The notes beneath the pieces were generated by a model that did no database searches, had not been told where the DNA came from, and worked only from the letters and a program-made list of their open reading frames with translations. A stretch of DNA of 49,724 bases, from NCBI GenBank assembly GCA_946405515.1, contig CAMJHM010000010.1, positions 1 to 49,724 on the forward strand. Direction: 5' to 3'. The translations under genes and the position numbers were made by a program. How positions within the stretch are numbered: position 1 is the first letter of the stretch; each line of letters opens with the position of its first letter. The DNA comes from an uncultured Fibrobacter sp. GTDB taxonomy: Bacteria; Fibrobacterota; Fibrobacteria; Fibrobacterales; Fibrobacteraceae. Below are positions 113 to 49,724 of the stretch, piece after piece.

Positions 113-1945
113 CTACTCTTCTTCAGCGGGGCGCTTCGACAGCTGCTTTCTCCTGATGGGGTCAAGCTCTGTCTTGCGCAGGCGCAGCACTTCCGGCGTG
201 ACTTCGATGCATTCATCTTCGTTGATGAAGGTGACGCATTCTTCCAGAGTCATGCGGCGGTAGGGTGTCAGCTGAATCATGTCGTCGGCGGACTTGGAAC
301 GCATGTTGGTGAGGTGCTTGCCCTTCGTGACGTTCACAGTGATATCAACGTCGCGGTTGTGTTCGCCCACAATCATGCCCGGATAAACTTCGGCACCCGG
401 ACCAATGATGAGGTAGCCACGGTCTTCCAGGTTAGAAAGTGCATAGCTTGCGGCTTCGCCCGGTTCCTTAGCGATGAGCACACCGTTGATTCGTGCCGGG
501 ATTTCGCCCTTGTACGGCTGGTATTCCTTGAAGAAGGACTGCGTCACGGCGTAACCCTTGGAAAGCGAGAGGAGCTTCGGACGGATACCGATGAGGCCAC
601 GGGAGGGAACGATGAATTCGAGAGACACGCGGTCGTTTTCATCGGTCGTCATGTTGACCATTTCGCCCTTGCGCAACTGGATTTCCTGGATGCAAGCACC
701 GCTGAATTCGTTCGGGACTTCGACCTTGAAGTCTTCGACCGGTTCCAAGAGCTTGCCGTTTTCGTCTTTTTGGAAAATGACCTGCGGACTTCCGATGGTG
801 AATTCGTAAAGTTCACGGCGCATGTTTTCGACGAGAATCGTGAGATGCAAAATGCCACGGCCAGAGACCTTGAACGTCGATGCTCCATCGACCTTTTCGA
901 CGAGGAGGGCGGGGTCAGCCATGTGGGCGCGTTCCAAGCGTTCCTGGAGCTGGTTACCCGTCATGAACTTTCCACCGTACTTGCCTGCCAAGGGGGACGT
1001 GTTTACGGTGAAGATCATGGAGATTGTCGGCGGGTCAATGTGGATACGCGGCAAGTGAACTGGATTGCTCGTTGCGCTGATGGTGTCGCCAATATCGAAG
1101 TAGTCAAGGCCTGCGATGAGGATGATTTCGCCCGGACCGGCTTCGTCAACCGGCTTCGGGGTAAGGCCTTCGTAGCGGAGAATCTTCTGCGGACGGATGT
1201 TCTTGACGGTTCCGTCGGGGAATGCCTGAGCGTAAGTCTGGTTCGGCTTGAACACGCCCTGCTGCACGCGGCCCACGGCCAAGCGGCCAAGGAAGGTCGA
1301 GTATTCGAGCGATGCAATCTGCAGGAGCGGTTCCGCAGCCGGGTCGCCCTTCGGGGCCGGGATGCGCTCGATAATCTTGTCCATGAGGATGCTGAAGTCG
1401 CCGTCCGGGTCTTCCATTTCGGCCTTGCAGATTCCCTTACGGCCGGATCCGAACACCTTGTCGAAGTCCAGCTGTTCCTCGTTGGCGTCCAGTTCGCAGA
1501 ACAGGTCGAATACTTTGTCAAGAGCGCCGTGGGGGTTGCAGCCGTCGCGGTCGATCTTGTTCACCACTACGATGGGGATAAGTCCGAGTTCAAGAGCCTT
1601 CTGGGTCACAAAGCGCGTCTGGGCCATGGGGCCTTCGAACGCGTCGACAACTAGAAGCACACCGTCAACCGTGCCGAGCACGCGTTCCACCTGGCCACCG
1701 AAGTCGGCGTGCCCCGGGGTATCGACGATGTTCACGCGATAGCCCTTGTACATGACGCTCGTGTTTTTGGAGAGAATGGTGATGCCGCGTTCGCGTTCAA
1801 GGTTGTCGGAGTCCATCACGCGCTCGTTGACTTCTTCACCTTCGTGGAAAGTTCCGCACTGCTTGAGAAGTTGGTCAACCAGGGTCGTTTTACCGTGGTC
1901 GACGTGGGCGATGATGGCTACGTTTCTGATTTTTGTCTGATCCAT
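113..1945 (-). CDS. typA: Translational GTPase TypA/BipA
   Basis: Ribosome-associated GTPase of the EF-G/LepA superfamily, involved in ribosome assembly and stress or low-temperature adaptation; cytoplasmic. The 610 residues match the usual family length. The G-domain motifs are all visible: P-loop AHVDHGKTT (13-21), switch I RERGITI (51-57), DTPGHADF (75-82) and NKID (129-132). EF-G-like domains and the TypA-specific C-terminal domain follow. The start is preceded by AAGAAGAGC. The gene lies downstream of the 2042-3292 gene on the same strand, but 96 bases containing a hairpin separate them, so it probably has its own promoter. Identification is secure. Confidence 0.97.
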
Positions 1946-11131: not shown

Positions 11132-12607
11132 ATGCAATTTGTACAACGTGAAAAAGAAAAAAAGAAACTGTTGGATGCGTATCAGGCCATGCGACAGTCC
11201 GGCCGACAGCAACTGAGATTCGTCATAGGCGAGGCTGGAACCGGGAAAACAGTCCTGATTAACCAATTTCTCGATGAAATTTCAGCTACCACGGACCAAA
11301 CGCTTATTGTTTCAAGCAGCTGCAATGTACAGTCCGATTACAATATACCCTACCAGCCGTTCAAGGAACTGCTCAAGCAGTTGTTGAAAGACGTCGACGA
11401 GGAGGACTCCAAGGATTCCGAAAAGGAAAAATTCAAGGAGGTCTTCCGTTTCTGCGCTAGGACGGTATTCGAGCATGCTCCCGACCTGCTGGGAAACTTC
11501 ATTCCCGGGGCGTCCATCATTTCTGCGATAGGCCAGAACCTTTTCCAGGAAAAGGACAAAGAGCCTGCGCGCTCCATAGACGAGTCAAAAATTCTCGTGC
11601 AATATGTCGATGCCGTACGCTCCATTGCCGAGAAATACCGTTTGGTATTGATAGTGGACAATCTTCAATGGATAGACCCGTCCTCCGTGAATCTGCTCTA
11701 CCAGCTCGTAATCGGCCTCAAGAACAGCCCTGTGATGATAATCGGCAGCTACCGAAGTACGGACATCGACATTATCGTGGGCGGGGAAAAACACTTGTTG
11801 AACAAGCTGATTACGGAGGTGAAAATCAGCCTGGGCAATGTCTTTGTCGACCTAGACAAGGTCTCCGAAGCCGATCGTCGCGAACTGATGAATAGGATGT
11901 TGGATTCGAATAGAAACATTCTCGACGCTCGTTTCCGCGACAAGCTTTTCGAGCGTACCAATGGCAACCCTCTTTTCATAAACGAACTCATGAACCTGTT
12001 GATTGAAAAGGGGATGGTCGTTTCCAAAAATGACGGGGTATGGTCGAACAACGCGAACCTTGATTGGGATTCCTATCCTGTCCGCATAGAAGGTATCATC
12101 CAGGAACGAATCGGTCGTCTGGAGGATTCTCTCGTGGAGGTTCTCTCGTATGCAAGCGTCCAGGGCTACACATTCATAGCGCAGGTCCTTTCCAAGACCA
12201 TGGATATGCCTGAACGCAGCATTCTCATGACACTTTCAAAAACCCTGCAAAAACAGCACCATCTGGTAACCGAGGACGACTGTATCCGTTGCAGCCAGGG
12301 GATTGTCTCGAAATTCAATTTCTCGAGTTACATCTTCCAGCAGTATCTCTATCAGGAACTGAGCCAAACCCAGCGAATGATGCTCCATAGTGACATCGCG
12401 CGCATTCTTGAGGACTACTTCAAGGACAACATCGAAGAGGCCGCTGGAGACATCGCGCGTCATTACGAGATGTCCGAGGAGTACGATAAGGCAGTAAAAT
12501 ACATTAGGATAGCCGTCGACAGCATGATGCGCCTTTCCGCTTATAGCAAGGCCGCCACGCTGATAAAAAAAAGCCCTGGGCTTCTTGAAGGACATGCCCC
12601 AAAGTAG
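11132..12607 (+). CDS. STAND-type AAA ATPase, N-terminal part of a frameshifted protein
   Basis: A 491-residue frame with a signalling NTPase domain of the kind found in MalT- and adenylate-cyclase-linked regulators. It has Walker A GEAGTGKT (33-40), Walker B 'LVLIVDNLQWID' (about 173-184) and a sensor strand 'MIIGSYRST'. A winged-helix-like region and the first helical repeats (A-R-H-Y-E...Y-D-K-A-V-K-Y) follow. The frame ends in KKSPGLLEGHAPK just after an A8 tract (12565-12572). With seven A the reading frame continues as LIKKALGFLKDMPQSSETRR into the next frame, a typical TPR continuation for this family. The intact product would be about 803 residues. No DNA-binding or cyclase domain is visible. 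Confidence 0.75.
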   Translation: MQFVQREKEKKKLLDAYQAMRQSGRQQLRFVIGEAGTGKTVLINQFLDEISATTDQTLIVSSSCNVQSDYNIPYQPFKELLKQLLKDVDEEDSKDSEKEKFKEVFRFCARTVFEHAPDLLGNFIPGASIISAIGQNLFQEKDKEPARSIDESKILVQYVDAVRSIAEKYRLVLIVDNLQWIDPSSVNLLYQLVIGLKNSPVMIIGSYRSTDIDIIVGGEKHLLNKLITEVKISLGNVFVDLDKVSEADRRELMNRMLDSNRNILDARFRDKLFERTNGNPLFINELMNLLIEKGMVVSKNDGVWSNNANLDWDSYPVRIEGIIQERIGRLEDSLVEVLSYASVQGYTFIAQVLSKTMDMPERSILMTLSKTLQKQHHLVTEDDCIRCSQGIVSKFNFSSYIFQQYLYQELSQTQRMMLHSDIARILEDYFKDNIEEAAGDIARHYEMSEEYDKAVKYIRIAVDSMMRLSAYSKAATLIKKSPGLLEGHAPK

Positions 12608-47155: not shown

Positions 47156-48208
47156 TTGAAAATTTTACTTGCAATTCTGGTCACATTGGGTTGTGCATGT
47201 TGTTTTGGACAAGAAACTTTGAATGTCTATAAGAAGAACGGCAGGGAAGTCGACGAAAGTAAACCTGTGGGTACACTTTCCATGTCGGACTGGATTACGG
47301 AATTGCCTATTCCGAAGGATTCGGTCAAACGTGTCCGTATAGAGAAAGAACGTCGCGAAGTTATTGGCAAGAACGGAAAGAAGAAAATCCAGAATGTGAC
47401 CAAGCGTTATATTTCCTGGCGTCCCCGCGATCCCAAGAACCCGCCGCCCTTTGTTCCCATTGATTGCAAACACGGAAAGGTGTTTGTGAAACGTGCTGAA
47501 CTCGCCCGATTCCTGCAAGAGGCGAAGGACCTCAGTGGCGAATATGCGTCTGCCACTGGCAGTGTCTTCTTGAGAAAGTCTCCGAACAATCCCAAGCGGT
47601 TCGACGTGATTATCCAGAACGGCCCTGTGACAGAACGTTCAGAAATCGAGATGGGTAATCTGGAAATCCAAGAGAGCAATGGGCATGCGCGGTTGTCCTA
47701 CCACGAAGAAGGTTGCAATATCGACATCGCTGTCAATAACCGCAAGGTGAAAGTCGCACAGCGCGGTTGTTATGAATACAATGTGGGCAAGTACAAACTC
47801 GAAGGCGAGTACCCCACATACAAAGGCAATGCCCGCAAAGTCGAAGTATTTGAAATGCCCGAGCAGAAGTTCAAGTTCAAGAAGTACTTCTGGTGCGGTA
47901 GCGGTTTTGACAGTTGCGAAAAGGTGAAGGACGACAACGGCGTTATCACTATCACCTGGAGCAAGGACGGCAACGGTTTTGTCGAACGCCAGGCAGGCGA
48001 GGAAGTCCACACTTATCGTCCGTTCGAGCACATGATTCCGCACAAACGCGATTACTACAAAGGTGAAAAGCCCATTGCCATCAAGACCAAGCGCACCGAC
48101 ATGAGTGGCGAGTGGATGATTTGGTATTTCTACCCGAAGGCCGAACGCCTCAAGATGGTCCGCGCCGGTATGCGTGAAGATATCGCCTACATGGAAATTT
48201 ACGAATGA
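47156..48208 (+). CDS. Exported protein of unknown function
   Basis: 350 residues if translation begins at the TTG at 47156, where a signal peptide (MKILLAILVTLGCACCFGQ) starts and GAGGCGGA lies upstream. An in-frame ATG at 47123 would add a basic extension before the same leader. The mature protein is basic and beta-rich; a Tyr-Lys-Lys start, 'PKDSVKRVRIEKERREVIGKNGKKK', paired cysteines (GCNIDIA, RGCYEY, FWCGSGFDSC) and a final 'WMIWYFYPKAERLKMV'. No family recognised. Its stop overlaps the PIN-domain gene by 4 bases. Confidence 0.6.
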   Translation: MKILLAILVTLGCACCFGQETLNVYKKNGREVDESKPVGTLSMSDWITELPIPKDSVKRVRIEKERREVIGKNGKKKIQNVTKRYISWRPRDPKNPPPFVPIDCKHGKVFVKRAELARFLQEAKDLSGEYASATGSVFLRKSPNNPKRFDVIIQNGPVTERSEIEMGNLEIQESNGHARLSYHEEGCNIDIAVNNRKVKVAQRGCYEYNVGKYKLEGEYPTYKGNARKVEVFEMPEQKFKFKKYFWCGSGFDSCEKVKDDNGVITITWSKDGNGFVERQAGEEVHTYRPFEHMIPHKRDYYKGEKPIAIKTKRTDMSGEWMIWYFYPKAERLKMVRAGMREDIAYMEIYE

Positions 48209-48654
48209 TAAATTCCATCGAGCAAAGCCGGATCCTGTTCCTTGATTCTGGGCCGCTGGTCCGGCTGTTGCAGATGCACCCGGACTTTTATCCGGCAGTG
48301 TCGGGCGTGCTTGACATGGTGTACGAGAAGAACATGCAAGTTCTGGTATCGTCCGTTACCTTGTTCGAGATTAGCCAGAAGGCGTTCGCTGCGAACGAGG
48401 GCGTGCTTGCCCGGCAGTACCGCGAGTTCTTCGAACATTCTGCGAACGTGAAGGTATGCCCGATAGATGCCGAAGTTTCTGTAAAGGCTGCCGAACTCTA
48501 TGCCGCTTCGCAGAAGACGAACCACAGGCTGACCGAGGCGGAGTCCCTGCGCCTTGCGACCGCGTTCGTGAACGGCGCCGACTGCATTCTTACGGAATGC
48601 GCAAACTTCCGTGACGCAACCGATGCCCTCGTCGTGACACTCGACGAAGTCTAG
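48205..48654 (+). CDS. PIN-domain protein, orphan VapC-like
   Basis: 149 residues of PIN-like ribonuclease fold. Asp14 (LFLDSGPLVRLL) and Glu55 (SSVTLFEIS) match the first two acidic sites. The third site is Glu instead of Asp (EAESLRLATA). The fourth, normally T-x-D, reads LTECANF, with Cys in place of Asp. Family toxins cut RNA and are usually paired with a small antitoxin just upstream; here the upstream gene is a 350-residue exported protein overlapping by 4 bases, so no normal antitoxin is visible. Activity is uncertain. Confidence 0.7.
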   Translation: MINSIEQSRILFLDSGPLVRLLQMHPDFYPAVSGVLDMVYEKNMQVLVSSVTLFEISQKAFAANEGVLARQYREFFEHSANVKVCPIDAEVSVKAAELYAASQKTNHRLTEAESLRLATAFVNGADCILTECANFRDATDALVVTLDEV

Positions 48655-48750: not shown

Positions 48751-48888
48751 ATGATTAAGTTTTTGCACATTTTTTGTTGTGTGGCTTTATTTGCCATGCT
48801 GTCCGTTGGCTGTTCCGATGAAAAAAAAGAAACACAGAATTTGCCGCAGACAGAACAATCTGCCCCCCCCCAAAGGGGAAGTTTGTAA
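48751..48888 (+). CDS. Lipoprotein leader fragment ending at a C9 tract
   Basis: A 45-residue frame with GGGGGA before the ATG. It has a hydrophobic leader, lipobox LSVGC with Cys21, and a short polar tail (SDEKKETQNLPQTEQSAPP), then runs out of frame as QRGSL and stops. The tail contains nine C (48863-48871). With ten C the frame reads APPPKGKFVM and continues into the next gene, giving one 254-residue lipoprotein. Too short to be useful alone, so it is most likely the detached export signal of the downstream protein. Confidence 0.6.
   Translation: MIKFLHIFCCVALFAMLSVGCSDEKKETQNLPQTEQSAPPQRGSL
48863..48871. repeat. C9 homopolymer tract
   Basis: Nine consecutive C at the point where the lipoprotein leader and the Cys-rich protein lose a common frame. 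Poly-C tracts of this length are typical slipped-strand sites in bacteria; they are also common places for sequencing error. Confidence 0.8.
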
Positions 48889-49514
48889 TGTCGGAAGAGT
48901 CGAAAAATCGCTTGCGAGAACGTGCGCTAAAACAAATCGAGGAGCGTGAACGAATAAAGAAACTAAACCCGCAAACTGAGGTGATGGAAGATACGAAAGA
49001 ACCTCCTCGCATTCAAACATTGCATTCTGTTGACGAATGCTATCGCGCATGCTACGCTGCGGAGATTCTTGATCAAGAAGGCGATTCTGTCAGTGGTATG
49101 AATGTGCGTACTCTTGCATCCGAATGTGAAAAATCCTGCCGTCCTTTTGAAAATATCATTCCCGTCAATGCTTGTAGCAGGGCCTGCCTTGCTGCAGGTG
49201 ATGAATTTGTTCTGCATTCGAATTACATTATGGACAGTGTGACTTTTGCAAGATTTGTTCTAGAAATTTGCGATGAAACTTGTCCATGCGTAAATCGCTT
49301 TGATTCTTTGGCGTATAAAAAAGAAATTCGACACATTTTAGATAGCCTTGTGCGTAAAGAGGATATGGATAGCGTTGTCTTTGCTAAATACGATAAAGCC
49401 GTAAAAAGAGTTAAGTGTAGAAGAGGTTTTAACCGTAACAAACATTGCCCAGAAACGTTGATTGAATACGATAAAAAACGTGCCATGGCTTTAGAAAATT
49501 GCAGCCAACAATAA
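48888..49514 (+). CDS. Cys-rich protein with two twin-CX3C modules
   Basis: 208 residues from the ATG at 48888, which overlaps the stop of the leader fragment (TAATG); AAAGGGG lies upstream. After a charged helix (1-28) come two related modules: CYRAC (51-55) with CEKSC (80-84), and CSRAC (96-100) with CDETC (128-132, then Cys134), spaced 24 and 27 residues. Each has C-x-R-A-C-x-A-A at its first motif, so one arose by duplication. Such twin CX3C pairs usually make disulfide-linked helical hairpins, which need an oxidising compartment. Yet this frame has no export signal of its own, which supports fusion to the leader at 48751. Three more cysteines follow (177, 187, 205). AT-rich; no family recognised. 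Confidence 0.6.
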   Translation: MSEESKNRLRERALKQIEERERIKKLNPQTEVMEDTKEPPRIQTLHSVDECYRACYAAEILDQEGDSVSGMNVRTLASECEKSCRPFENIIPVNACSRACLAAGDEFVLHSNYIMDSVTFARFVLEICDETCPCVNRFDSLAYKKEIRHILDSLVRKEDMDSVVFAKYDKAVKRVKCRRGFNRNKHCPETLIEYDKKRAMALENCSQQ

Positions 49515-49615: not shown

Positions 49616-49724
49616 ATGTCCAACTATTGTCCTGTTATCGGTCTTGAAATCCATTGTCAGCTCGCGACGAAGACGAAGATGTTCTGCGGCTGCGAAATCG
49701 AAGTGAATACGACCCCGAACAAGC
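49616..49724 (+). CDS. gatB: Asp/Glu-tRNA amidotransferase subunit B, 5' end only
   Basis: The first 36 codons are visible before the window ends. '[26 protein letters not shown]' is the conserved GatB N-terminus, including the Cys pair of the zinc site. GatB, with GatA and GatC, converts Glu-tRNA(Gln) or Asp-tRNA(Asn) into the correctly amidated tRNA. GGAG lies 6 bases before the ATG. Truncated by the window edge, not by mutation as far as can be seen. Confidence 0.93.

Follow-up and report, generated by a model that had tools for sequence, protein, structure and literature searches.

The window analyzed here is a stretch of 49,724 nucleotides (49.7 kb) on contig C10 of a draft Fibrobacter assembly (2.84 Mb in 174 contigs, 77% complete, 5.4% contamination). 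Near its end, we identified two forward-strand open reading frames (ORFs), 48751–48888 and 48888–49514, that are out of frame with each other, with a run of nine cytosines (C9) between them at 48863–48871, as read directly and by pattern search. This is the sole C run of at least 6 within the window. The 5′ ORF encodes 45 amino acids, starting with MIKFLHIFCCVALFAMLSVGC, followed by SDEKK, and by translation, lipobox pattern and comparison with the leaders of orthologues consists of a lipoprotein signal and a Lys/Glu/Gln/Pro linker that ends at TAA. The lipobox ends in LSVGC and the pattern match falls on Cys21, the predicted acylated residue, in agreement with the earlier note, which had read this segment as a lipoprotein signal. 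The leader further contains an A8 run (48821–48828), a second possible slippage site, which is kept in the orthologues from genomes G030 and G111. Directly behind the C9 tract, the segment AAAGGGGAAGTTTGTAATG (48872–48890) combines a possible Shine-Dalgarno-like GGGG with a TAATG stop/start overlap, and this overlap exists only in the C9/C12 frame.

The 3′ ORF encodes 208 amino acids, among them 12 cysteines with four CX3C motifs, which bears out its description as Cys-rich, and it corresponds to the mature part of a single lipoprotein in the orthologues. No match above the cut-off was found in Pfam or NCBIfam, and none among PDB sequences. An AlphaFold model of the G030 form is all helical with a mean pLDDT of 55.8, too weak for a fold search; the domain is described here, at low confidence, as mostly helical. 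Upstream of the split gene lies a PIN-domain gene (48205–48654), and downstream, from position 49617 onward, a gene whose first residues, judged by eye, resemble gatB; the sister genome G030 has the same neighbors on both sides.

A homopolymer of nine cytosines is of slippery length, and by frame arithmetic the C9 site joins this length to a frame-deciding position. Outcomes were computed for tract lengths from C5 to C13. A single frame results from C7 (253 amino acids), C10 (254) and C13 (255), as had been proposed from the letters for C7 and C10, and the nine cytosines are thus all that separates the two frames. With C9 or C12, translation stops at the TAATG overlap, and with C8 or C11 a product of about 65 amino acids ends some 20 codons beyond it.

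In a genus-wide search, long-form orthologues with one open frame and a lipobox were found in five other Fibrobacter genomes (266 amino acids in G030, G111 and G112, 260 in G110 and 255 in G115), and in every one the linker runs uninterrupted across the tract site. The leader is identical or near-identical in G030, G111 and G112. Shorter, distant homologues (L011–L015) and L017, a paralog from the window genome, have the C-terminal part in common with the long form and are likewise single ORFs with a lipoprotein-type leader. The strict lipobox pattern is matched by the leader in the window and by those of G030, G110, G115 and L011–L014; L017 misses it, with Glu at position −2, before GC. The earlier note had also considered that homologues of the Cys-rich protein might never have a leader: a lipoprotein-type leader was present in all full-length matches inspected, and no leaderless homolog was seen among them. 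Because the orthologues are uninterrupted and the distant homologues also start with such a leader, we regard the leader as an integral part of the protein; the two ORFs form one gene, as the earlier note implied. A chance adjacency of two unrelated ORFs is ruled out, since the joined form is the rule among relatives.

The linker DNA is near-identical between the window and its nearest sisters, the tract excepted. The tract region reads CTGCACCCCCAAAGGGG in G030 and G111, CTGCACCCCAAAAGGG in G112 and CTGCCCCCCCCCAAAGGGG in the window. In the three sisters, the site spans seven bases with an A-interrupted C run, namely C5 in G030 and in G111 (CACCCCC) and C4 in G112 (CACCCC, with a further C to A change), and the window differs by a net gain of two bases and the loss of the interrupting A. 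No C run is present at the site in G110 or G115, so that among the window genome and the five orthologues the long tract is found only in the former. Two metagenome-assembled genomes, Tb.RUG.359 (L018, with the sequence of G030) and RUG11357 (L019, with that of G112), resemble the window in carrying the same protein at ~88–89% identity with the same lipoprotein leader (the neighboring genes, too, are the same in G030), but differ from it in having one continuous ORF with CACCCCC or CACCCC instead of C9.

We consider it likely that the frame, as assembled, was broken by slippage in a lineage-specific C run of an ordinary lipoprotein gene. The comparison shows that the ancestral gene had one frame, running from the lipobox leader through a short linker into the Cys-rich helical domain. 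The A of the ancestral GCACCCCC might then have changed to C, giving a run of about C7 with the frame kept, and this unbroken run could have slipped to C9, a net gain of two, such that translation would end at the TAA immediately upstream of the domain. This order, with the A to C change preceding slippage, is suggested by parsimony only. With nine cytosines, the Cys-rich part would be either unmade or made without export through re-initiation at TAATG, which appears plausible. Because C9 is long enough for further slippage, in-frame C10 or C7 cells are probably also present in the population, and export may be heterogeneous between cells, but nothing points to a switch of long standing.

The Cys-rich ORF has a dN/dS of 0.16–0.20 against the five orthologues, within the 0.12–0.24 seen among the intact orthologues themselves. 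No sign of relaxed constraint or of an added lesion was found, that is, no further stop or frameshift across the 208 codons after the break. Because the ORF is stop-free and its dN/dS is typical of the family, these data indicate that the break is recent or that the gene is in frame, and still partly used, in part of the population; a very recent gene loss is possible. To judge from the sequence comparison, the break looks like a derived frameshift, recent and possibly reversible.

The C9 could also be a consensus error or a collapsed tract in a draft genome, with a true tract of C7 or C10 and an intact gene. Homopolymers are sites of assembly error, the gene is intact in all relatives and under purifying selection, and a gene in L001 of the same assembly also appears to shift frame near an A9 run. 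Yet, when most of the window was aligned to G030 and G111, the tract was the only mid-gene uncompensated frameshift noticed, and the run itself is truly unlike the seven bases with an A inside that the relatives have. Other non-triplet indels within genes lie in diverged stretches, where they compensate each other, or fall outside credible genes. The one exception is close to the 3′ end of the 11132–12607 ORF, where the window has A8 (12565–12572) and G111 has A7, a difference that would change only the last residues. Because the tract is the only such frameshift relative to two genomes, the assembly is not generally frameshift-prone, and a generally indel-ridden assembly is ruled out for the window by these alignments. 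An artefact confined to the tract appears rather unlikely.

The earlier note went further and proposed that the poly-C tract switches export. The part that concerns the leader is supported by homology, which suggests that it is needed for export; the switch itself fared poorly. In that reading, the tract would be a selected contingency site with surface export on at C7/C10 and off at C8/C9. Its length, its site just behind the lipobox of a surface-type gene and the preserved downstream coding sequence speak for this, and in-frame G10 runs occur in other Fibrobacter surface-type genes (FISUMP-like lipoprotein L004, L126, L132, L138). Against it, the tract is found in none of the five orthologues, which rules out a poly-C switch shared across the genus at this position, and most long C/G runs examined in Fibrobacter genomes lie between genes. 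By pattern search and in sampled stretches of the genome, we collected 51 long C/G tracts from nine genomes (the window genome and eight of the genus): 16 are located within called ORFs, a few of them in surface-type proteins, and the other 35 outside, the ORF calling being mechanical and placing the tract in the window and that of L007 outside ORFs. Runs of at least 9 C or G are rare in the window genome, with two in 450 kb sampled and five in the whole assembly, near the ~2–5 expected per 2.84 Mb under Markov models of order 2–4; a modest excess is possible, as extrapolating from runs of 5 to 7 lowers the expectation. In a full-text literature search, no report of phase variation in Fibrobacter was apparent from the titles and abstracts listed. 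A selected switch is accordingly an improbable account of this tract, and from the sequences compared here we lean towards a lineage-specific slippage frameshift over a long-standing switch.

Equally doubtful is that the ATG at 48888, an internal Met codon in all orthologues, works as a start, so that a Cys-rich form lacking the export signal is made alongside the lipoprotein or in its place. The GGGG nine bases before this ATG and the TAATG overlap would suit such a start, and the codons AAG TTT GTA ATG TCG GAA GAG (48879–48899, KFVMSEE) are free of synonymous changes across six species, whereas only 14 of the 41 amino-acid-conserved codons after them are invariant; the contrast, drawn after the fact, is a weak hint, and Glu and Lys codons frequently stay invariant in any case. 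The GGGG of AAAGGGG is, however, degraded in two orthologues (TGGAAAG in G110, TAGAAAG in G115), the internal-start segment is missing from the shorter homologues, and a protein with 12 cysteines is, as a matter of general knowledge, unlikely to fold well in the reducing cytoplasm.

We give a very low probability to polymerase or ribosome slippage, programmed or spontaneous, that restores the frame on A8 or C9 without a change in DNA. Homopolymers of at least 8 nt are listed as transcriptional-slippage sites (PMC3711429), by frame arithmetic a +1 shift on A8 or on C9 would bring the two ORFs into one frame, and the A8 is kept in G030 and G111. These sisters are already in frame, though, so that A8 is not needed there for recoding, and in G112, G110 and G115 the run is either broken up or missing. 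Least probable, we think, is a newly arising contingency locus in a rumen Fibrobacter, in which the C run would switch export on and off while an internal start that already works (KFV-M-SEE) would provide the protein without export whenever the lipoprotein is off; slippage would then shift the protein between two compartments rather than silence it.

A lipoprotein gene whose frame was broken by slippage, the reading we prefer, has some likeness to known systems. A mycoplasma surface lipoprotein is described as switched through a frameshift at a defined site (Theiss and Wise 1997, as cited in PMC3711429), and Neisseria carries phase-variable repeats (PMC5320596); in these, as here, the frame of a gene for a surface protein depends on a homopolymer or repeat near its 5′ end. 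In mycoplasma and Neisseria, however, length variation has been demonstrated between cells or isolates, whereas the Fibrobacter tract is known from one assembled genome and occurs in no orthologue. What appears as a pair of genes, one for a leader and one for a protein, is best read as a single lipoprotein gene that a homopolymer has split, and the annotation of an uncharacterized Fibrobacter lipoprotein family is corrected accordingly. If reads were to show length variation, this would be, within the material searched, a first hint that slippage varies export in Fibrobacter.

Several further homopolymer sites were encountered. In G115, a different lipoprotein (L126) has an in-frame G10 some twelve codons downstream of the lipobox (ACSSGTVDPNANPFAGGG), the layout also seen in the split gene. 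Another lipoprotein-like gene (L007) has C11, G11 on the coding strand, at 1501–1511, directly before its probable TTG start, with which an upstream ATG is out of frame at this tract length; the region before the tract was matched in 52 of 80 genomes, a match that covers this pre-tract region only. On contig C6 of the same genome, L001:900–1620 (minus strand) belongs, together with L108–L111 and L116, to a large secreted-protein family with up to eight matches in G030; within L001, the frame appears to change near the A9 at 940–948 (minus strand), a second homopolymer-associated frame break. In members of this family, a likely GTG start is directly preceded by a G-rich run whose length differs between copies, with G10 in G000, G9 in the G030 copy L109 and G5–G6 in L108, L110 and L116, so that tract length may possibly tune the ribosome-binding site.
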